Below, in pieces: positions 43,234 to 64,000 of a stretch of 64,000 nucleotides of DNA. Every line of letters starts with the position of its first letter. Position 1 is the stretch's first letter. The notes below the pieces were generated by a model. The model was not told the DNA's origin, did no database searches, and saw only the letters and a program-made list of their open reading frames with translations. The position numbers and the translations under genes are program-made. This stretch comes from Pseudomonadota bacterium (lineage in GTDB: Bacteria; Pseudomonadota; Gammaproteobacteria; Xanthomonadales; Rhodanobacteraceae): NCBI GenBank assembly GCA_021792975.1, contig JAJYTR010000006.1, forward strand, positions 1-64,000. The letters are read 5' to 3'.

Positions 43234-43237
43234 GACC

Positions 43238-46985: not shown

Positions 46986-47938
46986 AGCGCGGCCTCGAGG
47001 ATTACGTGGCTGAGCAGGCCCAGCAGCGCCAGTAGAAAAGCCAGGGTGAGGTAGCCCGGCACGCGGAAGACGCGCATCTTGGCCAGCACCGTTTCGCTGA
47101 CCGCCAGCAGCGCCGCCAGCAGCGCCAGCTTGAGCGCCAGCAGCGGCAGCGCCAGCAGCAGTGCCAGCGGATCCGCACGCGTGGCCAGTCCCCAGGGCAG
47201 GAACAGGTCCACGGTCAGCATCGCGAACAGCAGCAGCTTCAGCTGCGCCGCCCAATCCATCAGCGCCAGGTGGCGGCCGCTGTATTCCAGCAGCATGCCC
47301 TCGTGGATCATGGTCAGTTCGAGGTGCGTGGCCGGGTTGTCCACCGGGATGCGCCCGCACTCGGCCACGCCCACCATCAGCAGCGCCGCCAGCGCGAACA
47401 GGTACGAGGGCCGCAGCACCGTCGTGCCGCCCAGCGTGGCATCGGCCATGCCGGCCAGGTTGGTGGTGTGCGTGGTCATCGCCAGGGTGAAGATCACCAG
47501 CAGCAGCGCGGGCTCGGCGAACGAGGTCACCAGCATCTCGCGCGCCGCGCCCATGCCGCCGAAGGGCGTGCCGGCATCCAGCCCCGCCAGCACCAGCATG
47601 AAGCGCGCCAGCCCCAGCAGGCCGATCAGCGCGATGGCGTCGGCGATGCGCGCGCCGGGCAGCACGGTGCTGAACACCGGCAGCGCCGCGGCGGCCAGCA
47701 GCGTCGCGGCAAACACCACGTACGGCGCGGCGCGGAACAGCGGCGAAGCGGTGCGGGCGACGACGGCTTCCTTGCCGAACAGCTTGCGCAGATCGCGATA
47801 CGGCGTCAGCAGCGGCGCCCCGCGGCGATTCTGCAGGCGCGCCTTGATACGGCGCACCAGGCCCGCCAGCAGCGGTGCCGCCGCCAACAGCAGCAGCGGC
47901 TGCAGCAACGCGGCGGCGAGGCTCAGGAAACGATCCAC
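46982..47938 (-). CDS. HyfC/HycD/NuoH-like membrane subunit
   Basis: RRIKARLQNRRGAPLLTPYRDLRKLFGKEAV...AECGRIPVDNPATHLELTMIHEGMLLEYSGR; GTG start. Confidence 0.9.
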   Translation of the reverse strand: MDRFLSLAAALLQPLLLLAAAPLLAGLVRRIKARLQNRRGAPLLTPYRDLRKLFGKEAVVARTASPLFRAAPYVVFAATLLAAAALPVFSTVLPGARIADAIALIGLLGLARFMLVLAGLDAGTPFGGMGAAREMLVTSFAEPALLLVIFTLAMTTHTTNLAGMADATLGGTTVLRPSYLFALAALLMVGVAECGRIPVDNPATHLELTMIHEGMLLEYSGRHLALMDWAAQLKLLLFAMLTVDLFLPWGLATRADPLALLLALPLLALKLALLAALLAVSETVLAKMRVFRVPGYLTLAFLLALLGLLSHVILEAAL

Positions 47939-49914
47939 AGCAGCACCAGCAGGGTGATCAGCGACCAGGCCAGATAGCGCCGCACATGGCCGGCCTGCGC
48001 ACGCCGCGCGAGATCGGCGGCGCGGTCGGCCAGCATGCCCAGCGGGCGGTACAGCCAGACCCAGGTGCGATCGCCGACCTCGACTTCGTGGCGGTCCGCA
48101 GCAGTCGTCTCGCGCAGCGCATAGGCGGGCGCGAACACGCGCCGCTGCGGCTGCGCGAAGCCGGCGGCGCTGTACTGCATGCGCGGCGTCGGCGGCGCAT
48201 AGCCGCAGTCCCAGGGATCGGCGCGGCGCACCGCCGCGCCCTGCCGCGGCCGCAGCAGCAGCACGCCCAGCGCCCCGACCGCCAGCAGCACCGCCAGGAT
48301 CGGCAGCGGCGCGTAGCTCGAAGTGGCCGGATCCAGCGGCGTCAGCCACAGCCAGCCCGTGCCGGCCGGCGCGCTGCCGGTCAGCTGCAGCGCGGCGCGG
48401 CCCAGCAGGCCCAGCAGCGGCCCGGGCAGCAGCGCGGCCACGGCGATGCCGGCCACCAGCAACGCCTGGCCCGCCAGCATGCCGCCGCCCACCTCGTGCG
48501 CGTGCCGCGTGCTGCGGCTGCGCGCACGGCCCAGGAACGCGATGCCGTAGGCGCGCACGAACACGGTCGCCGCCAGTGCCGCGGTCAGCGCCAGCGCCGC
48601 CGCCGCCAGCGGCACCAGGATGCGCAGCAGGCCGTCGTGCAGCCGCCAGGCCTGCAGCGCCGCCTGGAAAGTCAGCCATTCCGACACGAATCCGTTCAAC
48701 GGCGGCACCGCCGCCATGCCCAGGCAGCCGATCAGGAACATCCAGCCGGTGCGCGGCATGCGCCGCAGCAGGCCGCCCAGCCGATCCAGGCTGCGCGTGT
48801 GCGCGCCGTGCAGCACCGCGCCGGCGCCCAGGAACAACAGGCCCTTGAGCAGCGCGTGGTTGAGCGCCTGGTACAGCGCCGCCAGCAGCGCCAGCGCCGC
48901 CAGCGCCGGATGTCCCGCGGCCTGGAAGATCTGCGCCAGGCCCAGGGCCAGGAACACGATGCCCAGATTCTCGATCGACGAATACGCCAGCAGGCGCTTG
49001 AGATCGCTCTGCTGCAGCGCCAGCAGCACGCCCAGCACGGCGCTGGCCGATCCCACCACCACCAGCGTCACGCCGTAGCCCCATTGCGGCACCCCCAGCA
49101 GATCGAACGTCACGCGCAGGAAGCCGTACAGCGCCACCTTCAGCATCACCGCCGACATCAGCGCCGAAATGTGCGAGGGCGCTGCCGGATGCGCCTCCGG
49201 CAGCCACACGTGCAGCGGCACCAGGCCGGCCTTGGCGCCGAAACCGGCCAATGCCAGCGCGAAGGCGATTGCCGCCCACAGCGCATCCGGATGCGCCGCG
49301 CGCATGGCGGCGAACGAAAACCCGCCGCCGGCCGCAGCCAGGACGCCGAAGGCCAGCAGGATCAGCAGGCCGGCCACGTGCGCCAGCAGCAGATACACGA
49401 ACGCGGCGCGCCGGTGGTCGGCGTGCTCGTGCTGGAAGCACACCAGGAAATACGACGCCAGCGACATCAGTTCCCACGCCACCATGAACAGATACGCATC
49501 GGCCGCCAACAGCACGCCCAGCATGCCGGCCACGAACAGGCCGGTGGAGACCCCGAGCGTGGCCAGCGAATCGCGACCGTTGCGGAATTCGCGCGCATAG
49601 CCCGGGCCGTACACCGAAACCGGCAACAGCACCGCACCCAGCATCAGCAGGAACACGCCGGCCAGCGGATCGACGCTGAGCTGCCACGGCAGCCACGGCA
49701 GCCCCAGCGGCAGCACGGCTCCCTGCGCCACGTCGAACCCCAGCGCCAGGGTGCCCGCGGCCAGCGCGCAGACCGCCGCCAGCCCCAGCAGCGGAAACGC
49801 CAGCAGCGACAGTGCGCGCGGCCAGCGCGCAGCCAACGGACTCACCGCCGCCGAGGCCAGCGCCGCCAGCACCGCGGCTTCGGCCAGCGGCAGGGTCAGC
49901 GCGGCGGCACTCAC
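47923..49914 (-). CDS. HyfB/HycC-like antiporter subunit
   Basis: Multi-TM; KAGLVPLHVWLPEAHPAAPSHISALMSAVMLKVALYGFLRV. Confidence 0.9.
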   Translation of the reverse strand: MSAAALTLPLAEAAVLAALASAAVSPLAARWPRALSLLAFPLLGLAAVCALAAGTLALGFDVAQGAVLPLGLPWLPWQLSVDPLAGVFLLMLGAVLLPVSVYGPGYAREFRNGRDSLATLGVSTGLFVAGMLGVLLAADAYLFMVAWELMSLASYFLVCFQHEHADHRRAAFVYLLLAHVAGLLILLAFGVLAAAGGGFSFAAMRAAHPDALWAAIAFALALAGFGAKAGLVPLHVWLPEAHPAAPSHISALMSAVMLKVALYGFLRVTFDLLGVPQWGYGVTLVVVGSASAVLGVLLALQQSDLKRLLAYSSIENLGIVFLALGLAQIFQAAGHPALAALALLAALYQALNHALLKGLLFLGAGAVLHGAHTRSLDRLGGLLRRMPRTGWMFLIGCLGMAAVPPLNGFVSEWLTFQAALQAWRLHDGLLRILVPLAAAALALTAALAATVFVRAYGIAFLGRARSRSTRHAHEVGGGMLAGQALLVAGIAVAALLPGPLLGLLGRAALQLTGSAPAGTGWLWLTPLDPATSSYAPLPILAVLLAVGALGVLLLRPRQGAAVRRADPWDCGYAPPTPRMQYSAAGFAQPQRRVFAPAYALRETTAADRHEVEVGDRTWVWLYRPLGMLADRAADLARRAQAGHVRRYLAWSLITLLVLLWIVS

Positions 49915-50579: not shown

Positions 50580-51701
50580 ATGAGCGCAGGCACACGCATG
50601 CCCGCCGTATTCCTCGGCGCCGACCGCTACCGCGGCAGCGTCTTCCCGGACCACCACCCGCTCGCCATCCCGCGTATCGCCACGGTGCTCGATCTGTGCA
50701 CGGCACTGGGCTGGCTCGACCCGGCCCACCATCGAGAATGTCCGCTGGCCACCGACCGGGAACTCGCGCAGTTCCATGACGCGGGCTACATCGCCGCCTT
50801 GCACCGTGCCGACGCGGGCGGGATCCCGAGCGCGGCGGATCGGGCGCAATACGGCATCGGCACGCTGGAGAATCCGGCAGCGCCCGGCCTGTTCGCCCGC
50901 GCGGCGGGCGCCGTCGGCGGATCGATCCTGGCCGCGGACCTGGCGATCGCCGGGCACGTGGTGTTCCACCCCGCGGGCGGCATGCACCATGGCCATCCGT
51001 CCCGCGCCCGCGGCTTCTGCTACTTCAACGACGTGGTCTTCGCCCTGCGGCGGCTGGAAGAGCACGGGCTGCGGCGCATCGCCTGCGTGGACTTCGACGC
51101 CCATCACGGCGACGGCGTGCAGGAAGCGTTCCGCGACGATCCGCGGGTCCATACCGTCTCCATCCACGAAGCGGGGCGATGGCCCTACACGGGCGCCGCG
51201 GAGGACCGCGGCGGCGGGCGCAGTCTCAACCTGCCGGTCCCGGAGGGCTGCAATGACACCGAATTCCGGCTGCTGCTCGACGTGGTGGTGTGCCCGGCGC
51301 TGCAGCGGCTGGATCCGCAGGCGGTGGTGGTGGTCTGCGGAACCGACGCCCTCTCCGGCGATCCCCTGTCGCGCATGGTGCTGAGCAACCTCGCGCTGTG
51401 GGAGGCCGTCGACCGCGTTCTGGCCATGGCGCCGGTGCGCATCGTACTGGGCGGTGGCGGCTACAACCCGTGGACGCTGGCGCGGGCCTGGACCGGCCTC
51501 TGGGGGAGGCTGCGCGGGGCGGATTTCCCGGATGTCCTGCCCCCCGCCGCACAGGCCATCCTGGGTCTACTTCAGTGTGATCTAATAGACCACGAGGCGA
51601 TCGATCCCGCCTGGCGGACCACGCTCGCGGACACCCGGAATCCGGGGCCGGTGCGCGGCGCCATCCATGCCCTGATCGCCGGTGCGTCGGCAGGCCCCTG
51701 A
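50580..51701 (+). CDS. histone deacetylase/AcuC-family Zn-dependent amidohydrolase
   Basis: HPAGGMHHGHPSRARGFCYFNDV; CVDFDAHHGDGVQEAF; GTDALSGDPL; LGGGGYNPW; active-site residues retained. Confidence 0.9.
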   Translation: MSAGTRMPAVFLGADRYRGSVFPDHHPLAIPRIATVLDLCTALGWLDPAHHRECPLATDRELAQFHDAGYIAALHRADAGGIPSAADRAQYGIGTLENPAAPGLFARAAGAVGGSILAADLAIAGHVVFHPAGGMHHGHPSRARGFCYFNDVVFALRRLEEHGLRRIACVDFDAHHGDGVQEAFRDDPRVHTVSIHEAGRWPYTGAAEDRGGGRSLNLPVPEGCNDTEFRLLLDVVVCPALQRLDPQAVVVVCGTDALSGDPLSRMVLSNLALWEAVDRVLAMAPVRIVLGGGGYNPWTLARAWTGLWGRLRGADFPDVLPPAAQAILGLLQCDLIDHEAIDPAWRTTLADTRNPGPVRGAIHALIAGASAGP

Positions 51702-51729
51702 TTCCGCGCTGCGTGCGCCGGAGGTACGG

Positions 51730-52818
51730 ATGGACTGGCACCAGACCCTGATGGGCATCGAAGCGTTCGAGGATGCGGTCTTCGATGCCGGACTGGTGCA
51801 GCGGATGCAGGCGCGGGCCGGCGCGACGGCGGGGCGGCCGCTGCGCTTTTCGACCCCCACGTTCAAGGACTTCGACAGCGGCGAGCTGCACGGGTGCTCG
51901 CGCAACCGCTTCCCCGCGTTCTCCATCACCGGCGGTGCCTGCGGGCTGCAGTGCGACCACTGCCAGGCCAGGATCCTCGAGCCGATGATCGCCGCCCCCT
52001 CGCCGGAGATCCTCGATGCCAAGGTACGCACGCTGGTGCACACGCAGGATCTGGGCGGGTTCCTGCTGTCCGGCGGTTCCAACCGCCGCAACGTCATCCG
52101 CTATGAACGCTATTACCCCGTCCTCGAGCGGCTGAAGCGCGACTTCCCGCATCTGCGCATCGCCATCCACACCGCGCTGACCGACGCGCACGGCGCGCGT
52201 GCCATGGCGGCCGCCGGCGTGGACACGGCGATGATGGACGTGATCGGCAGCGCGGACACCATCCGCGAGGTGTACCACCTGCAACGTCCGGTGGACGACT
52301 TCGAGGCGACGCTGGCCGCGCTGTGCGAAACGCCCATGCAGGTGACACCGCATATCGTCATCGGCCTGCACTACGGACGCCTGCTGGGCGAGAGGACCGC
52401 GCTAGAGATCGTCGCCCGTCACCCGGTCAGCTCGCTGGTTCTGGTGGTGGTGATGCCGTTCTACGCCAGGCCCGGCACCTTCAGCGTGCCGGCCACCGGC
52501 GACGTGGGCGAGATCTTCCTGGCCGCGCGTGCGCGGCTGCCCGACCGCGAGGTGCTGCTGGGCTGCGCGCGGCCGGCCGGCCTGCACAAGCGCGTTACCG
52601 ACGCCTACGCGGTGATGGCCGGGCTGGACGGCATCGCCTTCCCCGCCGAAGGCGCCGTGCAGGTGGCGCGCGCCATCGGCCGGCCGTTCGACCAGCAGCA
52701 CGCCTGCTGTTCGATCCGGTTCGGCGACGGCGCGACGGGCGCGGCGCAGCGGCAGGCCGCGGATGCTGCCGGCCGCGCCGCCGCATTCCATGGTGTCCAT
52801 GCGGGAGCGCACCCATGA
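51730..52818 (+). CDS. radical SAM lipoyl-synthase-type protein (LipS1/LipS2 pair member)
   Basis: Radical SAM motif GGACGLQCDHCQA (CxxxCxxC); biotin-synthase-like; adjacent to second LipS-like and lipoate ligase. Confidence 0.75.
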   Translation: MDWHQTLMGIEAFEDAVFDAGLVQRMQARAGATAGRPLRFSTPTFKDFDSGELHGCSRNRFPAFSITGGACGLQCDHCQARILEPMIAAPSPEILDAKVRTLVHTQDLGGFLLSGGSNRRNVIRYERYYPVLERLKRDFPHLRIAIHTALTDAHGARAMAAAGVDTAMMDVIGSADTIREVYHLQRPVDDFEATLAALCETPMQVTPHIVIGLHYGRLLGERTALEIVARHPVSSLVLVVVMPFYARPGTFSVPATGDVGEIFLAARARLPDREVLLGCARPAGLHKRVTDAYAVMAGLDGIAFPAEGAVQVARAIGRPFDQQHACCSIRFGDGATGAAQRQAADAAGRAAAFHGVHAGAHP

Positions 52819-54080
52819 GCTGCTTCGAACCGGCCGGAATCGCGAAGCCTGCAGCCGGACCGGCGGCGCACGACGTCAACCCGTTCGCGGCCATGCAGCC
52901 GCGCGCGCCGGCCCCGACTCCGGCGGACCTGCGCAACGGCGGCCGCGTCAAGCGCGACGGCGTGGCGCCGCGGGGCGTGTACCTGCCCAACGACAACGTG
53001 CTGACGCCGCAGATGCGCTCGCCCGAGTACGTGCAGATCTCGACCGCCGCCGCAATGACGCTCGGCATCATGCCCGGGCGCATGCACCGCTGCGAGTGCA
53101 CCCGCTGCCTCAACCTGCTACTGACCTATCCCGAAGGCTGCCGCGCCAATTGCGCCTACTGCGGCCTGGCGCGCCACCGCGAGGCCGAGCGCGACTACGC
53201 CGATCGCAACTTCATCCGCGTCGACTGGCCCGCGGTGCCGATGGAGCAGATCCTCGACATCGTCGCGCGCGATCCCGCGAACAGCCCGTTCCACCGCATG
53301 TGCATCTCGATGATCACGCACCCGCGCTCGGACGAGGACACCGTGTCGGTGCTGCGCGCCTGGACGCGGCGCATCGACCCCGCCGCGATCCCGGTCTCCA
53401 TCCTCTCCAACCCCACCACGATGGCGCGCGAGGACGTGGTGCGGCTGAAGGACCTCGGCGCCGACATCTTCACCGTGGCGCTGGATGCCGCCACCCCGGA
53501 GATCTTCGACCGCACGCGCGGCAAGGGCGTGCAGTCGCCACACAAGTGGAGCCGGTACTGGGAAGTGCTGATGCATGCGCGCGACGTGTTCGGGCCACGG
53601 AAGTTCGGCGCGCACATCATCATCGGCATGGGCGAGACCGAACGCGAGGCGCTCGAGCTGGTGCAGAAGCTCGTCGACCTCGGCGGCCACAGCCACATGT
53701 TCTGCTTCTTCCCGGAGAAGGGCTCGCTGATGGACCACCTGCCGGCCACGCCACGCGACCAGTGGCGCCGGGTGCAACTGGCGCGGTACCTGATCGACTA
53801 CGCCGGCGTGCGCGTGGAACAGATGCGTTTCGGTGACGACGGGCGCGTGCTCGACTACGGGCTGCCGCGCGCCGAACTGGACGCGGTGATCGACGCCGGC
53901 ATCGCCTTCCGCACTTCCGGCTGTCCCGGCAAGTTCCGTGACGACGTTTCGGCCTGCGACCGTCCGTACGGCGATTCCCCGCCCAGCAACATCGCCAGCT
54001 ATCCGTTCCAGCCCGGCCGGTCGGATCTGCGGCGCGTGCGCCGCCAGCTGCGCATACCCGTGGTACGCGAGGACGCATGA
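52815..54080 (+). CDS. radical SAM lipoyl-synthase-type protein (LipS1/LipS2 pair member)
   Basis: RCECTRCLNLLLTYPEGCRANCAYCGLARHREAERDYADRNFIRVDW; CxxxCxxC plus auxiliary-cluster-like cysteines; ATGA overlaps on both sides. Confidence 0.78.
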   Translation: MSCFEPAGIAKPAAGPAAHDVNPFAAMQPRAPAPTPADLRNGGRVKRDGVAPRGVYLPNDNVLTPQMRSPEYVQISTAAAMTLGIMPGRMHRCECTRCLNLLLTYPEGCRANCAYCGLARHREAERDYADRNFIRVDWPAVPMEQILDIVARDPANSPFHRMCISMITHPRSDEDTVSVLRAWTRRIDPAAIPVSILSNPTTMAREDVVRLKDLGADIFTVALDAATPEIFDRTRGKGVQSPHKWSRYWEVLMHARDVFGPRKFGAHIIIGMGETEREALELVQKLVDLGGHSHMFCFFPEKGSLMDHLPATPRDQWRRVQLARYLIDYAGVRVEQMRFGDDGRVLDYGLPRAELDAVIDAGIAFRTSGCPGKFRDDVSACDRPYGDSPPSNIASYPFQPGRSDLRRVRRQLRIPVVREDA

Positions 54081-55153
54081 GTCCGACCGTGCGGGTGGTG
54101 GATGCCGGCCTGCAGCCGGGGCGGCTCAATATCGCGATCGACCAGGCGATCATCGACCTGCACCAGGCCGGAGCGGTTCCCGACACCCTGCGCTTCATCC
54201 ACTTTTCGCCCACCGCGCTGGTCGGCCGGCACCAGGACCTGAGCGCCGAGATCGACCTCGACTATTGCCGCGCCCACGGCATCGGCGTGGGCCGCCGCAT
54301 TACCGGCGGCGGCGCCATCTATCTCGACGAAGGCCAGCTCGGCTGGGCGCTGGTCCTCAGGCGGGACGCGCTGGGGACGGGCACGCTGGGCGAGGCCGCG
54401 GCACGGATCTGCCACGCGGTCGCCGCCGGCCTCGGCCGGCTGGGCGTCGACGCGCGGTTCCGGCCGCGCAACGATATCGAGGTCGACGGCCGCAAGATCA
54501 GCGGCACCGGCGGTTTCCATGACGGCGACACCCTGCTCTACCAGGGCACGGTGCTGGTCGATGCGGACACCACGCGCATGCTCGGCGCCCTGCGGGTGCC
54601 CAGGGCCAAGCTCGAACGGCACCAGGCCGATTCGGCCGCGCGGCGCGTCGTCGGCCTGCGCGAGCTCCTCGGCGCGGATACGCCGCCGATGGGCCGCGTG
54701 CAGCAGGCGCTGGCCGAGGGCCTCGCCGCCGGTCTGGGCCTGCGTTTCGATGCGGGAACCCTGACCGATGCCGAGCACGCCCTGGCCCGCGACCTGCACC
54801 AGCGCTGGATCGGACGCGACGACTTCGTGGCCGAAATCGATGGCGCCGGCCGCGACGCCGCGACCCGGATGGGCGAGTACCAGGGTGCCGGCGGACGGGT
54901 GGCCGCCTACCTGCGGCGGGAAGGGCCGCACCGCCGGCGCATCGGGCACCTGCTGCTGACCGGCGATTTCTTCGTGGCGCCGCCGCGCCTGGTGTTCGAC
55001 CTCGAGGCGCATCTGCGCGGCACCGACCTCGCCGACCTGCGCGCCAACGTCGCGGCTTTTTTCGCCGGCCGCGAGGCGGGCACGATCTCAATCACCGCCG
55101 GCGATTTCTGCACGGCGATCGAACGGGCCGCGGACGTGGCGGGGACGGACTGA
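54077..55153 (+). CDS. lipoate-protein ligase-like protein (sLpl-type, paralog 1)
   Basis: GRRITGGGAIYLDEGQLGWALVL; FRPRNDIEVDGRKISGTGGFHDGDTLLYQGTVL; catalytic Lys retained. Confidence 0.85.
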   Translation: MSPTVRVVDAGLQPGRLNIAIDQAIIDLHQAGAVPDTLRFIHFSPTALVGRHQDLSAEIDLDYCRAHGIGVGRRITGGGAIYLDEGQLGWALVLRRDALGTGTLGEAAARICHAVAAGLGRLGVDARFRPRNDIEVDGRKISGTGGFHDGDTLLYQGTVLVDADTTRMLGALRVPRAKLERHQADSAARRVVGLRELLGADTPPMGRVQQALAEGLAAGLGLRFDAGTLTDAEHALARDLHQRWIGRDDFVAEIDGAGRDAATRMGEYQGAGGRVAAYLRREGPHRRRIGHLLLTGDFFVAPPRLVFDLEAHLRGTDLADLRANVAAFFAGREAGTISITAGDFCTAIERAADVAGTD

Positions 55154-55224
55154 ATGGCCGGCCGCCCGCGCATGCGCCGCCGTCCGGGCACGGCATTCCC
55201 GCGCGGCGGTGGCGGCAGGTCCGC

Positions 55225-55935
55225 ATGATCACCCTGGCCGTGCTGCAGCACACCGATGCCGAATATCTCGGGCTGCTGGAGGATCATCTCGAGGGGCGCA
55301 ACATCCGCTTCCGCTACCACCGTCTGCACACGCCGGGCGGCAGCCTGCCGGCTGCACCGGAGGACTTTGCCGGACTGGTGGTCCTGGGCGCGGGGCCGCG
55401 CGGTTTCGCCAGCGGCGAGCGTCTGCCCGGGATCGCCGCGGAGGTTCGCCTGATCGAAGCCTTCCTCGCGGCCGGCCGCCCCGTGCTCGGCTTCGGCCTG
55501 GGCAGCGTGCTGCTGGCCGCCGCCGCCGGCGGCGGCGGCGAGGCGGCGCCGCTGCGCTTCGAGGTCGGCGCGGCGCGGCGGGTGGACGCGGCGGCGCTCG
55601 CGGGCCAGTTGCCGGCGCACTACCCCTACGCGCTGTACATGCGCGACCGCCCGCTGCTGCCCGCGGCATCGCGGGTGCTGGCGGTGGACGCGGCGCGGGG
55701 GGACCCGCTGCTGTTCGAGGTCGCCGCAACGGGATTCGGCTTCCCCGCGCATCCGGGGTTCAAGCGCGCGATGGTCGAGGATCTGGTGATGGAGTTTGCC
55801 GAGGCCCCGGAGGATGCCGCGGCGGGTCTCGCGCGCATGGCCGGGGCCCAGCGCGGAATCGCCGAGGCGCTCAGCGCGATGATGGTGGGACTGGTGCAGG
55901 TGGCGCGGCTGATGCCGCCCGCCGCGCCGGCCTGA
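55225..55935 (+). CDS. class-I glutamine-amidotransferase-like protein without nucleophilic Cys
   Basis: VLQHTDAEYLGLLEDHLEGRNIRFRYHRLH..LVVLGAG..; nucleophile-elbow position reads GFGLGSVLLA. Confidence 0.75.
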   Translation: MITLAVLQHTDAEYLGLLEDHLEGRNIRFRYHRLHTPGGSLPAAPEDFAGLVVLGAGPRGFASGERLPGIAAEVRLIEAFLAAGRPVLGFGLGSVLLAAAAGGGGEAAPLRFEVGAARRVDAAALAGQLPAHYPYALYMRDRPLLPAASRVLAVDAARGDPLLFEVAATGFGFPAHPGFKRAMVEDLVMEFAEAPEDAAAGLARMAGAQRGIAEALSAMMVGLVQVARLMPPAAPA

Positions 55936-55950
55936 GGCGGACGTCCCGCG

Positions 55951-55971
55951 CGCGGCGGAACGCCCGCCGCG
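55951..55971. terminator. possible bidirectional hairpin between convergent operons
   Basis: CGCGGCGG-AACGC-CCGCCGCG; no T-tract. Confidence 0.35.
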
Positions 55972-55977
55972 GACGGG

Positions 55978-57312
55978 TCAGTATTTCCAGGCCAGCGCGA
56001 CGCCGAGCGTGTCCTCGTACATGCGGATCGACGCCCCCTGGCTGGGGCCGCTGCCGGTGACGGTATGCGTGAACGCGTGCACGTAGTCGAAGGACAGGTC
56101 GGTGGAGCGGCTCAGGGCGTAGGTGGCCCCGAGTGTCACGTGGTCCTCGACCACGCCCGGCGCCAGCACGTTGATGAAGACGTCCTCGCTGGGGATCGGC
56201 TGGCCGCTGCGGTTCCATCCGGCGCGCAGGGTCAGGCGGGGACTGAAGGCGTAGGCCATGCCGAGCTTGATGACGGTGACGCTGCGCCAGCCGAACCCGG
56301 TGCCGCCCGGCGTACCGAGCCCGCAGCTGGCGGGTGCGGCGCAGACCAGCGAATTGATCTGCGGGTTGGCGATGGCGGGGATCCGGCCGTACTCGATGCG
56401 TTCGACGTCGCCGGCCAGGATCAGGCCGGGGCTGGGCGTCCAGGCCGCACCGAACCCGTAGTTGGCCGGGATGTCGAACTTGCCGCCGTCCGCGAACAGG
56501 CCGTTGTAGCGCTTGAACCGGCTCATGCTGATCTTGGGCTGCCAGGTCAGGCCTAGGGACAGCTCCGGCGTCGGATGTCCGATCCAGCCGATCCGCACAC
56601 CCACCCCGTCGGACTGCGCATGTAAATTGTTGGTGACGTTGGGCGGATTGCTCGACAGGCCCTGGAAGGCCTGGATGCCGTTGATGCCGAAGTTCTGGTG
56701 GACGATATCGAGCGAAATGCCGATGGAGTTGGCGTCGTCGATGCGGTAGGCCAGCGTGGGCGCGATGAACAGCTGCTGCAGGTCCACGCCCACCGAGCCG
56801 ACCCCGAAGGCGCCCAGTTGGCCGACCGGAGAGGCGAGGCAGGCGGAAAGATTGCCTCCGAACTGCTGCAGCACCTGCGGGTTGGCGCACTGCGCGCCCC
56901 GGGTGGCGCCGTTCAGCGTGGCGTACCCGGTGTTCATGCCCCCGTTGCCGAACACCGAGACGCCCAGCGCCAGGCGCCGCGTGAGCATGCGGTTGTAGCC
57001 GAACTCGGGAATGTAGAAATCGCTGGTCTGGTTGCCGCTGAAACTCATCGCGCCGCCCGGGGTGGCCAGCGTGGCCGAGCGCTGCGGCCGGAACAGGCTC
57101 ACCCCCACGTCGAGCCGGTTGCCGATCAGCGCCATGCCGGCCGGATTGGCCGCCGCCGCGAGTGCATCCAGAGGCAGGGCGATGCCCACGCCGCCCATGC
57201 CGACCGATTGCACGCTGTAGCCGGGCTGGAAGTAGCCGTCGGTCGCCGTGGCCAACCCCGAGGTGGCCAGCAGCGATGCGAGGACCGTCAGTCTGATTCG
57301 CTTGCTCAGCAT
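55978..57312 (-). CDS. FadL/TodX (OMPP1)-family outer-membrane transporter
   Basis: ATDGYFQPGYSVQSVGMGGVGIALPLDALAAAANPAGMALIGNRLDVGVSLFRPQR; C-terminal GVALAWKY. Confidence 0.88.
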   Translation of the reverse strand: MLSKRIRLTVLASLLATSGLATATDGYFQPGYSVQSVGMGGVGIALPLDALAAAANPAGMALIGNRLDVGVSLFRPQRSATLATPGGAMSFSGNQTSDFYIPEFGYNRMLTRRLALGVSVFGNGGMNTGYATLNGATRGAQCANPQVLQQFGGNLSACLASPVGQLGAFGVGSVGVDLQQLFIAPTLAYRIDDANSIGISLDIVHQNFGINGIQAFQGLSSNPPNVTNNLHAQSDGVGVRIGWIGHPTPELSLGLTWQPKISMSRFKRYNGLFADGGKFDIPANYGFGAAWTPSPGLILAGDVERIEYGRIPAIANPQINSLVCAAPASCGLGTPGGTGFGWRSVTVIKLGMAYAFSPRLTLRAGWNRSGQPIPSEDVFINVLAPGVVEDHVTLGATYALSRSTDLSFDYVHAFTHTVTGSGPSQGASIRMYEDTLGVALAWKY

Positions 57313-57505
57313 ATCGATGCCTCCTCAGTGACCCCTGCCGGGGCGGGTCGCCGGCCGGGTACGGCCGGCGGGGTGCGCAGGTTGGTCCTGCGCAAAGTCT
57401 GGGCGGCGCGACCGTGCGCGCGGGCCTGCGGATCCGGGCGTGGCGCGGGCGGCGGATGGCTGCCCGCTGCGCCGTGCCTGCCCGCGCAGCGGGGCCGCGG
57501 CACGC

Positions 57506-58591
57506 TCATGCGCCGGCCTCCGCCGGCAGCGCCTGGCGCAGTGCCGCCGCCAGATGCGCGGGCTCGACCCCGGGCATGTCCAGTCCCAGCGCGCGCATGT
57601 GGCCGTCGATGAGCGCCTCGAGCGAGGCGTCCACGGCCGCGCCGCGCAGCGCGCGGGCCAGTGCCGCGATCCCCGACGCCGGAAAGCAGGTGAAGTCGCC
57701 GGACAGGTCGAGATCCTGCAAGCGGCCTTCGCGGTACAGCACACGGGCGCGCAACAGTCCGCCGGGGGCCTTGTAGACCGACTCCGCGAGATGGACGCCG
57801 CCGGTGATCTTGACCGCTGCCGCGACGCGGCGGCGCTGCGCCTGCTGCAGGAACTCCGGATCGAGCAGACGCGCTTCCCAGTCCGCGACGGCCGCCTGTT
57901 CGCCGGCACGCAGCGCATCGGCGCCCGGCGCGAGGCCGAACTCGTCCCGCACGGCCGCGAGCAGCGCCGCAACGATGCCCTGTCGCGCCGGCACGCTGCC
58001 GAGTTCGCGGCGGATCGTGGTCATGTAGTCCTCGAGCGAGCTGCGCAGCTTGTCGCGGAATTTCTCCGAGGGAACGCGCAGGCAGCGCGCCATGGCGGCG
58101 GTGTCGAAATCCAGCAGGAAGCTGCCCACGAAGACGGTGGCCGCGCCGATCTGCGCGGCGCCGGTACCGCCGATCTTGCGACCGTGGACGTGGATGTCGT
58201 TGATCGGACGCAGGCACGCGGGGATGCCGAGGGCACGGTAGGCGCCCAGCACCGGCCGCACAAAGTGCGCATACAGGGCCGAGACGCCGCGGGGCGCGCG
58301 CGCCGCCGGCCAGATGAAGTGGAAGAACAGCTGCTGCGAATCGAGGTAGACCGCGCCGCCGCCCACGTAGCGGCGCAGGACCGGCAGCCCCGCGCGACGG
58401 CAGTACCCGGTGTCGACCTCGGCCTCGAGGGACTGGTGCAGGCCGATGCACACGTAGGGCTCGGCCGGCGTGGCCAGGGTCAGGACCGGGGTGCCGTCTG
58501 CCGCCATCGCGTCGGCCACCCCGTGGTAAACGGCCTGCGACCGCACCGCCGAAACCGATCCCACATCGATCACGCGCAGGGGGCTGCTCAT
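57506..58591 (-). CDS. lipoate-protein ligase-like protein (sLpl-type, paralog 2)
   Basis: RRYVGGGAVYLDSQQLFFHFIWP; LRPINDIHVHGRKIGGTGAAQIGAATVFVGSFLLDF. Confidence 0.85.
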   Translation of the reverse strand: MSSPLRVIDVGSVSAVRSQAVYHGVADAMAADGTPVLTLATPAEPYVCIGLHQSLEAEVDTGYCRRAGLPVLRRYVGGGAVYLDSQQLFFHFIWPAARAPRGVSALYAHFVRPVLGAYRALGIPACLRPINDIHVHGRKIGGTGAAQIGAATVFVGSFLLDFDTAAMARCLRVPSEKFRDKLRSSLEDYMTTIRRELGSVPARQGIVAALLAAVRDEFGLAPGADALRAGEQAAVADWEARLLDPEFLQQAQRRRVAAAVKITGGVHLAESVYKAPGGLLRARVLYREGRLQDLDLSGDFTCFPASGIAALARALRGAAVDASLEALIDGHMRALGLDMPGVEPAHLAAALRQALPAEAGA

Positions 58592-58700
58592 GGGCGGCTT
58601 GCCTCGGAAAGTGCGGGCGTTCCTCTCCCGCGGAGTACCGGCCGCTCCCTTGCGGGCGCGGCCGGTGCGACCCCCCGCGGGGCCGGTGCGATCCGTCGCC

Positions 58701-58928
58701 TTACTGCGTCCGCCGGATGCGGAAGCGGAACTCGTTGCCGGCCGCGGTGGATTCGACCAGCGCATGGCCGGTGGCCTTGCAGAAGGCCTCGAAGTCCTTG
58801 ACCGAACCGGGGTCGGTGGCCTGGATCGCCAGTACGTCGCCGACGGCCATCTCCTTGAGCGCTTTCCTGGCGCGCAGGATCGGCAGCGGGCAGTTCAGTC
58901 CGCGCGCGTCGAGGGTGTGGTCGGCCAT
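58701..58928 (-). CDS. tusA: TusA-family sulfurtransferase
   Basis: MADHTLDARGLNCPLPILRARKALKEMAVGDVLAIQATDPGSVKDFEAFCKATGH; catalytic Cys in CPLP. Confidence 0.93.
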   Translation of the reverse strand: MADHTLDARGLNCPLPILRARKALKEMAVGDVLAIQATDPGSVKDFEAFCKATGHALVESTAAGNEFRFRIRRTQ

Positions 58929-58943
58929 GGTGCGGTCCTCCGC

Positions 58944-59441
58944 TCAGATGAACAGGTTGATGTCGGATTTCATCGCGGTCTCGATATAGGTGGCCGCGCC
59001 GCCGACGATCGGGCCTTCGATCATGTCTTCGGGCCTGAACTCGAACAGGTCCATCGTCATCTGGCAGGCGATCATCTGCACGTCCGCCTCGATCGCCGCG
59101 GCGCGCAGTTCCTCGATCGAGGCGACGCCCTTCTTCCGGATCAGCGACTTCATCATCGCCGTGGCCGCGGCATCCGCGCCGGGCAGCGCGCCGAGCAGGT
59201 TGGGCATCGCCATGTGCCCGCCCAGCATCGGCATCGCCATGGCGGAATTGCCCAGGGTGGTGATGGACAGGTCGAGCTGCTTCTTCAGCAGGCCGAGGCC
59301 GTAGAACGTGAAGAACATGGACACCTCGAGCCCCATCGCGGCCGCCGTGGTCGCGAGGATGAACGGCGGATAGGCCCAGTCGAGCGAGCCTTTGGTGACG
59401 ATCATCGACATGCGCTTGGCGCGGGATTCACTCGTGTTCAT
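58944..59441 (-). CDS. DsrE3-like (DsrE/DsrF/DrsH superfamily) sulfurtransferase
   Basis: MIVTKGSLDWAYPPFILATTAAAMGLEVSMFFTFYGLGLLKK...QMIACQMTMDLFEFRPEDMI. Confidence 0.9.
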   Translation of the reverse strand: MNTSESRAKRMSMIVTKGSLDWAYPPFILATTAAAMGLEVSMFFTFYGLGLLKKQLDLSITTLGNSAMAMPMLGGHMAMPNLLGALPGADAAATAMMKSLIRKKGVASIEELRAAAIEADVQMIACQMTMDLFEFRPEDMIEGPIVGGAATYIETAMKSDINLFI

Positions 59442-59472
59442 GGTCGGTCGGCCTATGCGGACAATGGGGTGT

Positions 59473-59922
59473 TCAGGTGGCGCAGGCGCAGCCGGCGAAA
59501 CCGTCGGCCGCCATCTTCGCCTCATACGGAGCGGCGACCGCGGTGCCCGGCACGAGCGTGGCCCTGGCCTCGGCCCATGCCGCCGGCCGGACCTTCATCA
59601 GCCATCCCGCCTGGTAGGGATCGGCGTTGGCGGTCTTGGGATCGCCGACCAGGGCTTCGTTGATCTCGACCACCTCGGCGTCGCAGACGATCTTGGCCGG
59701 GCCGACCCATTTGCCCGACTCGATGGTGGCGCAGGACTTGCCCGCCTGCACCGGCTTGCCGGGCTTCTTGGGGGTGACCGCGACGAGCTGTCCGGCCAGG
59801 GCTACCGCGACCGAGGTCATGCCGAGCGTGACGGTGCCGTCGGCTTCCTCGCGGTACCACATGTTGTTGGGCACGTCGTACAGCAGTTCATCCGGCAGGT
59901 GGCACCCGCGGGCGGTGGCCAT
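59473..59922 (-). CDS. lbpA: lipoate-binding protein LbpA (GcvH-like)
   Basis: PDELLYDVPNNMWYREEADGTVTLGMTSVAVALAGQLVAVTPKKPGKPVQAGKSCATIESGKWVGPAKI; lipoylation Lys in ESGKW; sHdr context. Confidence 0.9.
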   Translation of the reverse strand: MATARGCHLPDELLYDVPNNMWYREEADGTVTLGMTSVAVALAGQLVAVTPKKPGKPVQAGKSCATIESGKWVGPAKIVCDAEVVEINEALVGDPKTANADPYQAGWLMKVRPAAWAEARATLVPGTAVAAPYEAKMAADGFAGCACAT

Positions 59923-59925
59923 GGC

Positions 59926-60378
59926 TCAGGTCTCCTCGGCGCCCGACGGCACGGCGGCATCGGCGGCGCGCAGCGGGCGCGACGCGCAGCAGAATTCGCC
60001 CAGGCGCGCATTCTCGAGTTTGCCGTCGATGAACAGTTGCAGATGGATCGCAACGGCGGCGGCCATGCGGAAATGGCGGATGCGCGTACCCGGATCCGTC
60101 CCGGCGACGGCGACATTGCAGTGATAGACCAGCTCGCGGCAGCTCTCGCGGCAGGCGTTGAAGCTGGGATCCGGGCGTGCCGCCTGGCGCTGCAGGGCCA
60201 GCAGGCGGAATCCCTCGTGCGTCCGCGTGGTCGGCGGCACGCCGTGCGCCTGCAGCCAGCGCTCCAGGGTGGCCTCGGCGATGCCGAGCAGCCGCTGCGC
60301 CAGCGCGTGCGGCGATCCGCTCAGTACCGCATCGGACTGTGCGGCAAACGCTTCCGCGGCGGAGCCCGGGAGGTCCAC
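59926..60378 (-). CDS. conserved hypothetical protein of sHdr locus (~150 aa)
   Basis: ORF between hdrB2 and lbpA; GTG start overlapping hdrB2 stop is plausible. Confidence 0.6.
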   Translation of the reverse strand: MDLPGSAAEAFAAQSDAVLSGSPHALAQRLLGIAEATLERWLQAHGVPPTTRTHEGFRLLALQRQAARPDPSFNACRESCRELVYHCNVAVAGTDPGTRIRHFRMAAAVAIHLQLFIDGKLENARLGEFCCASRPLRAADAAVPSGAEET

Positions 60379-60379
60379 C

Positions 60380-61303
60380 TCAGCCCAGCCCCTTCGCCCG
60401 CAGCAGATCGCGCGCATCGGCGAAGTTCTCATGGATGCCGACGGCGCGCGCGGACAGCCCGAGCGCCAGCCCCAGCAACTGGGTGAAATAGAGGATCTTC
60501 ACCCGCGTGGCCTTGCCGAACACCCGCGCGGCACGCGCCTGGTGCATCTCCAGCCCCGAGTGGCAGGTGGGGCATTCGGTCGCGATCACCTCCGCACCGC
60601 AGGCTTCGGCCGTGGTCAGCAGGTTGAGCACCAGCCGGGTCGAGGTGTCGGAATCGGAGAGGGTGTGCGCGCCGCCGCAGCAGGCGGTCTTCAGCGGGTA
60701 TTCGACGTTGACCGCGCCGGCCGCCGCCAGCAGGTCGTCCATGAAGTGCGGCTTGCTGGTGGATTCGGAATCGGGGCCCTGGTCCTTCTCGGGGAAAATG
60801 TGCCGCGGACGCGAATACATGCAGCCATAGTAGTTGGCCACCTTCAGCCCCGCGAGCGAGCGGCGGATGCGCGCCTTCAGCCCCTCCGGGCCGATGGCGG
60901 CGCGGATCCAGTCCAGCGCATGGATGGTCTCGACCTCGCCGGCGGCGTAGGGTGTCTCGCCCGACCTGGCCGCGAGCTCCGCGACGGTGGCCCGGGAGGC
61001 GGGGTCGTGGGCGAGGTCGTACTCGGCCTTCTTGAGGTTATGGTAGCAGCCGTTGCAGGGCGCCATCACGGTGCGCTGGCCCATGCGGCGGGCGATGCCG
61101 AGGTTGCGCGCCGACAGGAAGGTCTGCAGTTTGGGGTCGATGTTCTTCACTTCCATCGCGCCGCAGCAGTTCCAGCCTTCCAGCTCGACCAGGCGCAGGC
61201 CCAGCGCCTTGCCCACCGCGCGGGTCGAGCGGTCGTACGCATGCCCGGTGCCCTCGAGGGCGCAGCCCGGGTAGTAGGCCACTTCGCGGCAGGTGTCGGT
61301 CAT
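60380..61303 (-). CDS. hdrB2: heterodisulfide reductase subunit B-like (sHdrB2)
   Basis: Two CCG motifs: YYPGCALE..WNCCGAME..APCNGCYH and YYGCMYS..KTACCGGAH..TECPTCHSG. Confidence 0.9.
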   Translation of the reverse strand: MTDTCREVAYYPGCALEGTGHAYDRSTRAVGKALGLRLVELEGWNCCGAMEVKNIDPKLQTFLSARNLGIARRMGQRTVMAPCNGCYHNLKKAEYDLAHDPASRATVAELAARSGETPYAAGEVETIHALDWIRAAIGPEGLKARIRRSLAGLKVANYYGCMYSRPRHIFPEKDQGPDSESTSKPHFMDDLLAAAGAVNVEYPLKTACCGGAHTLSDSDTSTRLVLNLLTTAEACGAEVIATECPTCHSGLEMHQARAARVFGKATRVKILYFTQLLGLALGLSARAVGIHENFADARDLLRAKGLG

Positions 61304-62055
61304 GGCGCGGTCTCCTTGGATGCGGGGCCGAGTCCGAGCGCGGCGCGGCGGCGCGTGTTCTGGGTCTCGACGTAATCGTGCACGACACGGCGCACGCGGC
61401 CCCAGCGCGGCGTGCGCGGGTGCACCAGGGCGGCGAGCCCCAGTCGCGCCAGCAGACCCACGGGCAGCCTGGCGACCAGTCCCCTGACGATCGCCACCAG
61501 CCAGGGCTGCGCCAGCGGCTGGCCGGTGCGCCGGAAGAAGCGGCGCAGCAGGCGCCCTTCCTCGATGCGCCCGGTGGCGAACACCTGCGCCGAGAACTCC
61601 TCGTCGAACGCCATCGACGGGTTGGTCGGCACGTGGCCCTTCAGTTCGAGCCATTGCGCGGTGGCCTTCATCACGCCCTCGGGCACCACGTCGCGCGGAC
61701 AGGCGTAGGTGCATTTGTGGCAGGACACGCACTGCCAGATGATCTCCTTGTCCCGCAGCAGTTCCTGCTCCATGCCGAGGCGGATCAGGTAGATCCAGTA
61801 GCGCGGGTTGAAATCCGGGTTGATGGCGTTGACGGTGCAGGCATTGGTGCAGGAGCCGCACTGCCAGCAGCGGTGGATGTTCTCGCCGCCCGGCAGGGCG
61901 GCGATCTCGTCCTGCAGCCGTTCGTTGTAGTCGGTCAGCACCCGCGCGCCGATGAAGGTGCTCCAGTCGCCGGAAACATCGACGCCCTCCAGCACCAGGT
62001 GCTCCTGGCGTCTGAGATCCTCCTTGCGGATCAGCGATTTCTCGTGGATGGGCAT
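61300..62055 (-). CDS. hdrC2: heterodisulfide reductase subunit C-like iron-sulfur protein (sHdrC2)
   Basis: Two 4Fe4S motifs CWQCGSCTNACTVNAI and CVSCHKCTYACPRDV; overlaps hdrB2 start. Confidence 0.9.
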   Translation of the reverse strand: MPIHEKSLIRKEDLRRQEHLVLEGVDVSGDWSTFIGARVLTDYNERLQDEIAALPGGENIHRCWQCGSCTNACTVNAINPDFNPRYWIYLIRLGMEQELLRDKEIIWQCVSCHKCTYACPRDVVPEGVMKATAQWLELKGHVPTNPSMAFDEEFSAQVFATGRIEEGRLLRRFFRRTGQPLAQPWLVAIVRGLVARLPVGLLARLGLAALVHPRTPRWGRVRRVVHDYVETQNTRRRAALGLGPASKETAP

Positions 62056-62063
62056 GTGCGGTC

Positions 62064-62906
62064 CTAGCCGGGAGCCGCGGTCACGGCTGCGACCGCGGCG
62101 GGCGGCTTGAGCTTGATCCGCAGGCCGTCCCCGGACCAGCAGTCGAGCCCCAGCAACCGCCGGGTATGGGCCAGCGGATCTTCCTCACCGGTGAAGTCGC
62201 GCTTGAGGTAGGCGCCGCCGCGGTCATTGATGTAGCGCGCGTAGATCTGCGCACAGAGCAGGTCCTGCAGCAGGGCGAGGTCGCGGTACATGCCCGCCTC
62301 GCGCAGGAAACCGTCCAGTTCGCGGCGCAGGGTGCGGAACGTCCCGACGCGGTCGGAGGGCAGCATGGCCGCCGCCGCGTCGTCCTCGAACCAGATCTCG
62401 CGCAGCACGCCGCTGCCGACCGCCGCGTCCCACATCCAGCGCGTCATCAGCGGCACGCGCTCGGGATCGGTGAAGTGCAGCAGTTCGGCGGCCAGGTCGC
62501 GCAGCCAGCGCTCGCGGGTGCCGCCGGGCACCCGGGCGAGGAAGGCGTCGAAGCGGTCCTGCAGGTCGCCGCCGCCGTCGAGCAGCGCGACCAGGTGCCC
62601 GTGCAGGGAGGCAAAGCCGTTCACCGCCAGCCAAGAAGCGACGTGCCGCCGCACGGTTGCCATCAGGGTGCACAGGGCAAGCAACGGCCCCTCCTCGAGA
62701 CCGGCGATGCGCCCGCCGCCGGCCAGTTCGCCGAACAGGCGCACCTTCAGCCGCAGCGCGTCGAGAACCGTCTCCAGTCCTCCGGCACGGGCGGCGGCAT
62801 CCCGCAGCGCCTGCAGACCCGCGCGCAGTGCCGGTCCGCTGAGATCGAGTGTCGGCAGGACCTCGACCGCTGCGGGGGTGGCGGGGACGGGAGGACGGCG
62901 GGTCAT
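62064..62906 (-). CDS. conserved hypothetical protein characteristic of sHdr loci (between hdrA and hdrC2)
   Basis: 280-aa ORF in the conserved 'hyp' position of hdrC1B1A-hyp-C2B2 loci. Confidence 0.75.
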   Translation of the reverse strand: MTRRPPVPATPAAVEVLPTLDLSGPALRAGLQALRDAAARAGGLETVLDALRLKVRLFGELAGGGRIAGLEEGPLLALCTLMATVRRHVASWLAVNGFASLHGHLVALLDGGGDLQDRFDAFLARVPGGTRERWLRDLAAELLHFTDPERVPLMTRWMWDAAVGSGVLREIWFEDDAAAAMLPSDRVGTFRTLRRELDGFLREAGMYRDLALLQDLLCAQIYARYINDRGGAYLKRDFTGEEDPLAHTRRLLGLDCWSGDGLRIKLKPPAAVAAVTAAPG

Positions 62907-62909
62907 GGC

Positions 62910-63959
62910 TCAGGCGATGGCCGCGGTCCGCTGCGCACCGGCCAGCGCCGCGATCGCGGCCGCCTGGCCCTGCGCGATCGAATCGTCGATGGTCTCCGGC
63001 CCGGTCGCCGCACCGGCGACGAATACGCCCGCGCGGTCGGTCATGCCGCTGCCCGCGTAGCTGGGCGCTTTCTGCAGGTAGCCGTGGCGTTCCAGCGCCA
63101 CGCCGAAAGTGGCCGCGATCTCGCGGTTGTCCACGTTGGGATCCATGCCGATCGCGTGCACGACCAGATCGAAGGGGATGGTGATGGGACGCTTGACCAG
63201 CGTGTCCTCCCCCTTCAGCACCAGCCGGCGGCCGTCCGAAGTGACTTCGGCGATGCGCGCCTTGATGTACTTCACCCGGTATTCCTCCTGGCTCTGCCAG
63301 TAGTACTTGTCCTCGTAGAGGCCGAAGGTGCGGATGTCCATGTAGTAGATGTAGACGCTGCACTGCGGCAGCGCCTCGCGGATTTCCATGGCGATGTTGG
63401 CCGATACCGTGCAGCAGATCTTCGAGCACCATTCGCGGCCGATCTGGCGGTCGCGCGAGCCCACGCAGAGCAGGATCGCGACGCGCTCGGGCGCACGGCC
63501 GTCGGAAGGACAGTGGATGCCGCGACCGGACGAGAGCATCTGCTCGACCTGGGTGGTGGTGACTACGTCGGGATAGGTGCCGAAGCCCCACTCGGGCTTG
63601 TTCACCGAGTCGAAATGGGTGAAGCCGGTGCACAGGATGGCCGCGCCGGCGCGGCGCGTGCGGCCGTCGGAAAGCGTGACCTCGAACGCGCCGGGGGTGC
63701 CGCGGAAGCCGGTGACCCGGGTGTCGGTCAGCACTTCGATCCGCGGATGGGACTGCACGCGCGCGACCATGCCGCCGATGGCGTCCCGCGCCCATTCGCC
63801 GGAAGGCACCAGCTTCGCGTAGCCGGACAGGATGGGCGCGCCGCCCAGGCGCCCGGCCTTGTCCACCAGCAGCACCGGCCGGCCGGTGGCGACCAGCGCG
63901 TGCGCCGCCGAAAGACCCGCCGGGCCGCCGCCCACTACCAGGATGGCGCCGTCGCTCAT
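62910..63959 (-). CDS. hdrA: heterodisulfide reductase subunit A-like flavoprotein (sHdrA)
   Basis: ILVVGGGPAGLSAAHALVATGRPVLLVDKAGRLGG; ILLCVGSRDRQIGREWCSKICCTVSANIAMEIRE; GVFVAGAATGPETIDDSIAQGQAAA. Confidence 0.92.
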   Translation of the reverse strand: MSDGAILVVGGGPAGLSAAHALVATGRPVLLVDKAGRLGGAPILSGYAKLVPSGEWARDAIGGMVARVQSHPRIEVLTDTRVTGFRGTPGAFEVTLSDGRTRRAGAAILCTGFTHFDSVNKPEWGFGTYPDVVTTTQVEQMLSSGRGIHCPSDGRAPERVAILLCVGSRDRQIGREWCSKICCTVSANIAMEIREALPQCSVYIYYMDIRTFGLYEDKYYWQSQEEYRVKYIKARIAEVTSDGRRLVLKGEDTLVKRPITIPFDLVVHAIGMDPNVDNREIAATFGVALERHGYLQKAPSYAGSGMTDRAGVFVAGAATGPETIDDSIAQGQAAAIAALAGAQRTAAIA

Positions 63960-64000
63960 GTCGCGGTTCCGGCCAGCGCGCGGCGCGGCACGTAGCCGGG
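63956..64000 (-). CDS. C-terminus of upstream gene, probably sHdrB1 (partial)
   Basis: ...PGYVPRRALAGTAT* with ATGA overlap to hdrA; identity inferred only from conserved locus order. Confidence 0.4.
   Translation of the reverse strand, partial: PGYVPRRALAGTAT

Follow-up and report, generated by a model that had tools for sequence, protein, structure and literature searches.

Why should a gene for an enzyme of the histone deacetylase (HDAC) superfamily stand at the head of a bacterial lipoate-assembly operon, facing a set of sulfur-oxidation genes? This question is raised by a 64,000-nucleotide stretch of DNA from a bacterium of the Rhodanobacteraceae (Gammaproteobacteria; GenBank assembly GCA_021792975.1), called here the window, which comprises bases 1-64000 of the 71,459-base contig JAJYTR010000006.1 (C70 in the coordinates below); the host genome amounts to 2.28 Mb and is 76% complete. 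Towards its end the window carries the genes of the sHdr system, a widespread cytoplasmic sulfur-oxidation route in which the role of lipoate is unusual and poorly understood, together with lbpA, for the lipoate-binding protein, and a lip operon for lipoate assembly. This kind of locus, sHdr-LbpA with sLpl(AB)-LipS1/S2, is already published, and its unpublished-looking part is the HDAC gene heading the lip operon. No histone deacetylase or deacetylase is mentioned in the main texts of the open-access papers on sHdr and lipoate that were searched (figures, supplements and closed papers being outside the scope). As a conserved partner of the sHdr and lip genes, the HDAC is undescribed as far as these searches reach.

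Linkage of the deacylase to sHdr

A scan for LipS2 over 84,980 species genomes provided a comparison set of 80 named loci, with 74-86% identity in LipS2. The same gene set is found again in these 80 loci, so that its occurrence in the window is not due to chance; the hosts are metagenome-assembled genomes (MAGs) titled Alpha-, Beta- and Gammaproteobacteria. lipS1 is in view in 76 loci, seven of which are cut too close to judge the presence of the HDAC. It was found in 58 of the 69 evaluable ones, directly upstream on the same strand in 46 and elsewhere in the locus in 12, and is absent from 11, four of which have an HDAC elsewhere in the genome. An accident of the window is ruled out by these 58 linked loci. 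The divergence of the HDAC also follows that of LipS and Hdr (r 0.72-0.84 over 39 loci; 0.84 for LipS2, 0.78 for HdrA), as expected for a co-inherited unit.

The association holds as well at the level of whole genomes. In the window's class, 369 genomes were compared: strong HDAC matches (above 230 bits, the next group lying at 158-160 bits) were found in 22, HdrB1 in 22 and both in 21. The HDAC subfamily is therefore present in 21/22 genomes with HdrB1 versus 1/347 without it (Fisher p = 5e-32, uncorrected for relatedness), the 22 HdrB1 genomes being spread over about 14 family codes. The lone genome with the HDAC and without HdrB1 (G337) is 75% complete and belongs to the same genus as an HdrB1-positive one; the lone genome with HdrB1 and without the HDAC (G106) is a single contig and is also devoid of LipS1. 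No HDAC was found in the LipS1-positive, HdrB1-negative genomes G035, G045, G178, G186 and G311, which have lip clusters with no visible hdr genes, nor in G267, where the locus stops at a contig edge. A deacylase tracking LipS1/S2 in general is ruled out by these genomes.

In the Alphaproteobacteria, HdrB1 was detected in 4/190 genomes, all four with a strong HDAC match, and about 30 genomes without HdrB1 have AcuC-like copies. A subfamily strictly specific to sHdr across Proteobacteria is ruled out by the latter, and since they exist, specificity in the Alphaproteobacteria rests on the phylogenetic tree, in which the sampled copies form a sister clade.

Active site, phylogeny and a second genomic context

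The gene in question is the first of the lip operon:

50580-51701, plus strand: HDAC-superfamily Zn-dependent deacylase (class I, HDLP/AcuC-like); PF00850, 230.9 bits

Its nearest solved relative is the Aquifex HDLP (E 7e-67), and its catalytic residues are H136, H137, D171, D173, H175, D178, D256 and Y295. The Zn ligands (Asp/His/Asp), the His dyad and the Tyr are invariant in 23/23 aligned linked sequences. The foot-pocket motifs of the window HDAC are AGGMHH and GGGY, and nearly all linked HDACs have xGGTHH or xGGMHH plus GGGY instead of RPPxHH plus EGGY. According to a published analysis, xGGxHH with GGGY corresponds to an open foot pocket and marks the removal of longer acyl chains, RPPxHH with EGGY that of acetyl only (PMC11532494).

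A quick IQ-TREE phylogeny of 81 sequences, with support from the Shimodaira-Hasegawa-like approximate likelihood-ratio test (SH-aLRT) only, gathers 29 HDACs that are lip-linked or come from sHdr genomes, the window's included, in one clade (SH-aLRT 99). Its sister group (96) is made up of general alphaproteobacterial AcuCs without sHdr, and one copy from an sHdr genome (G380) is placed within it. In this sister group, copies near photosynthesis gene clusters are found on plasmids, with no sHdr in view, in Roseobacter litoralis (L260) and Thalassococcus (L261). The HDACs of sHdr Gammaproteobacteria with another gene layout form another clade (99), which Aquifex HDLP joins weakly (82).

In this second layout, the HDAC lies 6-9 kb from a second lipoate ligase in about ten sHdr genomes. 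With ligases nearby in both layouts, a function in lipoyl or octanoyl chemistry is favoured. More generally, the presence of the deacylase in 21/22 of the sampled HdrB1-positive genomes, and in two distinct surroundings, suggests a step that has been overlooked, in which the acyl group on LbpA is controlled or repaired. The stretches with CbbQ-type AAA ATPase and/or VWA-like neighbours of the HDAC are L314 5186-10347, L310 5164-10300 and L308 18-4535; an aldo/keto reductase gene follows the HDAC in L308, and similar-looking open reading frames (ORFs) are seen in L304 and L313.

A possible role at the lipoyl lysine of LbpA

What could such an enzyme do in sulfur oxidation? In relatives, LbpA has been established as essential for sHdr-dependent sulfur oxidation, and LipS1/S2 as inserting sulfur (PMC6067878, PMC10332631). 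Judging from these relatives, DsrE/TusA carriers would hand sulfane sulfur to the sHdrC1B1AHC2B2(I) complex and LbpA, which together would oxidise it towards sulfite; sLpl(AB) would put octanoate on LbpA, and LipS1 with LipS2 would then insert the two sulfurs. In the scheme proposed here, the HDAC would act at the lipoyl lysine of LbpA and hydrolyse the epsilon-amide bond wherever the attached acyl group is unfinished (octanoyl), damaged or unwanted, and the free acid released would go back to the ligase, the purpose being possibly proofreading or on/off control.

The scheme as a whole, an sHdr system with dedicated lipoate assembly and a Zn deacylase stripping acyl groups from LbpA, appears on balance probable, if only slightly so. 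For the HDAC taken separately as a Zn-dependent lysine deacylase acting on LbpA, of which we infer both the substrate and the direction of the effect, the chances look not quite even. The furthest-reaching proposal, that this clade of HDAC-type Zn deacylases is a dedicated sHdr part, namely the delipoylase or de-octanoylase of LbpA, is put forward tentatively and is rather doubtful.

Several observations weigh against a deacylase devoted to LbpA. In one MAG, G378, the locus includes both hdr and lip genes, and the genome has no such HDAC. The correlations between HDAC, LipS and Hdr distances are partly due to the common ancestry of the loci. Class I/AcuC enzymes have the open-pocket motif in general, the alphaproteobacterial AcuCs of genomes without sHdr among them; because the motif is so common in AcuC, it permits an eight-carbon substrate and does not prove it. 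Finally, the gammaproteobacterial HDACs examined in detail adjoin CbbQ-type ATPase and/or VWA-like genes, which suggests other partners.

Among the alternatives, the one that survives best is an AcuC-like lysine deacetylase that would strip acetyl groups from an enzyme of the locus, for example sLpl or an sHdr subunit, and so switch it, leaving the lipoyl group untouched. The nearest non-sHdr relatives of the HDAC are indeed annotated AcuC, and more distant AcuCs (Paenibacillus, Anoxybacillus) adjoin acetyl-CoA synthetase genes. BsAcuC deacetylates AcsA (PMC11532494), and sLpl makes acyl-adenylates as AcsA does (PMC10332631). Such a switch is nevertheless unlikely, since the HDAC goes with sHdr plus LipS across the sampled class and no acetyltransferase gene was recognised, by a coarse search, among the genes conserved in the loci.

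It is more improbable that the HDAC supplies free octanoate or lipoate, taken from acyl amides imported via FadL (lipY) or from other lipoylated proteins. The idea arises because sLpl accepts only free acids: sLpl(AB) uses free precursors and shows no octanoyltransferase activity (PMC10332631), and in many loci the HDAC comes together with a FadL-like gene. However, FadL is missing in some cases, and the genomes with LipS1/S2 and no sHdr do without the HDAC. A passenger with a house-keeping role, moving with the cluster by horizontal transfer, would fit with a cluster that is common as a whole to alpha-, beta- and gammaproteobacterial MAGs and with HDAC distances that follow those of LipS and Hdr, but is very improbable given that the HDAC is kept when unlinked, has an intact active site and a clade separate from the alphaproteobacterial AcuC, and that the gammaproteobacterial sHdr genomes have an HDAC clade of their own in a different context.

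The sHdr core and the sulfur carriers

How complete is the system in which the deacylase would act? Almost certainly, the locus encodes the whole of a type I sHdr system for sulfur oxidation, with a lipoate-assembly operon of its own. The core and lbpA follow the order shdrC1-B1-A-H-C2-B2-I-lbpA, and the minus-strand operon continues beyond lbpA with dsrE-tusA-ligase2-fadL:

58701-58928, minus strand: TusA sulfur carrier; PF01206, 87 bits
58944-59441, minus strand: DsrE-family sulfurtransferase; NF047629 (DsrE2), 212.1 bits against a cut-off of 210; PF13686 (DrsE_2), 166 bits
59473-59922, minus strand: LbpA, lipoate-binding protein; PF01597 (GCV_H), 104 bits
59926-60417, minus strand, start codon uncertain: sHdrI; no Pfam match, present in 39 loci
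60380-61303, minus strand: sHdrB2, CCG-domain subunit; PF02754, 81.6 bits
61300-62055, minus strand: sHdrC2, 4Fe-4S subunit; PF13183 (Fer4_8), 41 bits
62064-62906, minus strand: sHdrH; no Pfam match, 51 homologues
62910-63959, minus strand: sHdrA, FAD (flavin adenine dinucleotide) subunit; PF07992, 62.6 bits, mostly 66-81% identity to sHdrA in the loci
63956-64000, minus strand: sHdrB1, 3' end in the window, the gene extending over C70:63956-65335; PF02754/PF13183 matches for B1 and C1
C70:65349-66089, directly beyond the window, after sHdrB1: sHdrC1
C70:66124-66507, beyond the window, after sHdrC1: second DsrE gene

Type I sHdr has been defined by shdrC1B1AHC2B2 within one syntenic cluster (PMC11582611). 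The six core genes are contiguous, with B2, C2, H and A inside the window and B1 and C1 directly past its end, and the locus therefore corresponds to this definition.

A preliminary description, drawn from the window's letters, had listed these sHdr and lip genes, and all of them are there in the order and orientation that it gave, according to hidden Markov model (HMM) matches and ORF coordinates; hdrB1 and hdrC1, which it expected beyond 64 kb, were found at that place. It had also attributed the Hdr subunits to the sHdr type, in agreement with the approximately 50-80% identity of the A, B and C subunits to sHdr homologues in loci of the same architecture. Its LbpA is likewise distinct from a canonical GcvH, with 57-79% identity to the LbpAs of HDAC-type loci versus 35% to the separate GcvH of the genome (contig C80), and neither gcvP nor gcvT is found next to lbpA. 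The motifs it had read could be recognised too: the CVGSRD...CSKICC region of HdrA, the CCG domain of HdrB2, the Fer4_8 match of HdrC2 and the lipoyl Lys of LbpA, which sits in ESGKWVG, a motif identical in 43/43 copies. The DsrE3-like gene of the description is retained here at the level of the DsrE family; the NCBIfam match, just above its cut-off, is to DsrE2 and not to DsrE3.

The AlphaFold models of sHdrH and sHdrI have predicted local distance difference test (pLDDT) scores of 87 and 88.5, respectively, the latter from ORF residue 32 onward, and a fold search of both against the PDB gave no match at E<=0.001. In sHdrI, the Cys residues C63 and C117-C118 (modelled numbering) are invariant. 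Past the sHdr core, divergent plus-strand ORFs at C70:66724-67643 (L005 4724-5643) look by eye like a rhodanese and a PaaI-type thioesterase. Upstream of the locus, minus-strand ORFs at 43000-49900 of the window resemble by their appearance membrane subunits of an NADH dehydrogenase/hydrogenase-4-like complex.

The lipoate-assembly operon

The lip operon, hdac-lipS1-lipS2-slpl(AB)-lipX, lies on the plus strand and converges with the sHdr genes. After the deacylase, it consists of:

51730-52818, plus strand: LipS1, radical-SAM lipoyl synthase subunit; best match NF053742, 177 bits, below the cut-off of 230; 63-83% identity in related loci
52815-54080, plus strand: LipS2, radical-SAM lipoyl synthase subunit; best match NF053743, 185 bits, below the cut-off of 270; 74-86% identity to relatives
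54077-55153, plus strand: sLpl(AB), octanoate/lipoate:protein ligase; PF21948 (LplA-B_cat), 155 bits, plus an LplB domain match
55225-55935, plus strand: LipX, GATase-like; NCBIfam GATase matches, nucleophile Cys replaced by Gly

lipS1, lipS2 and a two-domain ligase are thus clustered, the gene set of lipoate assembly. The LipS1 and LipS2 of the preliminary description are retained as the best NCBIfam matches, at scores below the trusted cut-offs. ATGA stop/start overlaps join lipS1 to lipS2 and lipS2 to slpl, and sLpl(AB) has the motifs RRITGGGAIYLD and GRKISGTGG. No lipT lies between lipS1 and lipS2, which overlap (a result for the operon, not for the whole 76%-complete genome), and no gene separates them in 31/76 related loci either; this oxidoreductase gene is present in about half of the LipS1/S2 bacteria and is not required (PMC10332631). 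Two canonical LipA genes were found in the same genome, and the LipS1/S2 route is therefore an extra, dedicated one, separate from LipA as had been proposed; canonical lipoate synthesis alongside a dedicated route is published for other sHdr organisms.

The nucleophile Cys of the LipX GxCxG motif is gone in 63/63 lip-linked sequences including that of the window (Gly in 61/63, Glu in 2/63), and alignment with solved GATases also places a Gly at the Cys position. LipX is therefore probably a pseudo-amidotransferase, for which a scaffold or binding role seems likelier than that of an ordinary glutaminase, the latter being unlikely because of the lost nucleophile. This loss corrects the working annotation.

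Two further genes at the end of the minus-strand operon concern ligation and transport:

57506-58591, minus strand, between tusA and fadL: second lipoate:protein ligase; PF21948, 122 bits, LplB domain, 49.5 bits
55978-57312, minus strand: FadL/TodX-family outer-membrane transporter, lipY-like; PF03349, 76 bits

The second ligase is a separate paralogue, 31% identical to sLpl(AB), with the catalytic Lys kept. Orthologues of 65-66% identity occupy the same tusA-fadL slot in the two nearest MAGs, where the FadL-like gene adjoins them; in other genomes, G106 among them, more distant orthologues occur unlinked. Apart from this second-type ligase, G106 encodes two LbpAs, and its sHdr core is complete. 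That the second ligase is a general sHdr feature is unsupported, because only these two MAGs have a close orthologue in that slot and elsewhere orthologues are unlinked or absent; a role in scavenging, or on a second target, is plausible. Further conserved genes were sought across the 80 loci, and one ArsR-type regulator was readable by sequence, the rest being mostly antisense shadow ORFs.

The preliminary description had considered the accessory set as perhaps undescribed. The sHdr-LbpA pathway and the sLpl(AB)-LipS1/S2 route are published, and so are lipY, the FadL-like putative fatty-acid transporter, and the GATase-like lipX (PMC6067878, PMC10332631); what remains of that claim is the HDAC and the second ligase.

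Comparison with known systems

The removal of a lipoyl group from lysine, as proposed here for the HDAC, is a reaction of the lipoamidases Enterococcus Lpa and the sirtuins CobB/SrtN, which belong to other protein families (PMC5596343). In the literature searched, no zinc HDAC acting as a lipoamidase was found. If the HDAC indeed delipoylates or de-octanoylates LbpA, this would be, to our knowledge, the first case of a zinc HDAC doing so.

The closest published locus is that of Hyphomicrobium denitrificans, shdr-lbpA2-lipS1-lipT-lipS2-slpl(AB)-lipX (PMC6067878, PMC10332631, PMC11582611), which shares with the window the type I core C1B1AHC2B2, LbpA, sLpl/LipS1/LipS2, LipX and nearby TusA/DsrE. 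In contrast, the window lacks a lipT gene separating lipS1 from lipS2, and it has an additional ligase gene placed between tusA and fadL, a convergent layout, and a lip operon headed by an HDAC that the main texts of these three papers do not mention. The lipS1-slpl-lipT-lipS2-lipY clusters of Thioalkalivibrio sp. K90mix and Thiorhodospira sibirica (PMC10332631) have the same lipoate-assembly enzymes, with lipY nearby, in another gene order, and the sampled gammaproteobacterial genomes of that layout hold an HDAC of the other clade elsewhere, often 6-9 kb from a second ligase.

As for the enzyme itself, Aquifex aeolicus HDLP (1c3p) and Bacillus AcuC (PMC11532494) share with it the fold family, all catalytic residues and GGGY. 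The lip-linked clade is separate from the AcuC of Bacillota/Actinomycetota, and HDLP joins the HDACs of the gammaproteobacterial sHdr genomes (82). The scheme offers a substrate hypothesis for a group of bacterial HDACs to which HDLP, one of the family's early structural models, may belong; if the scheme is true, HDLP could thereby gain a physiological job.

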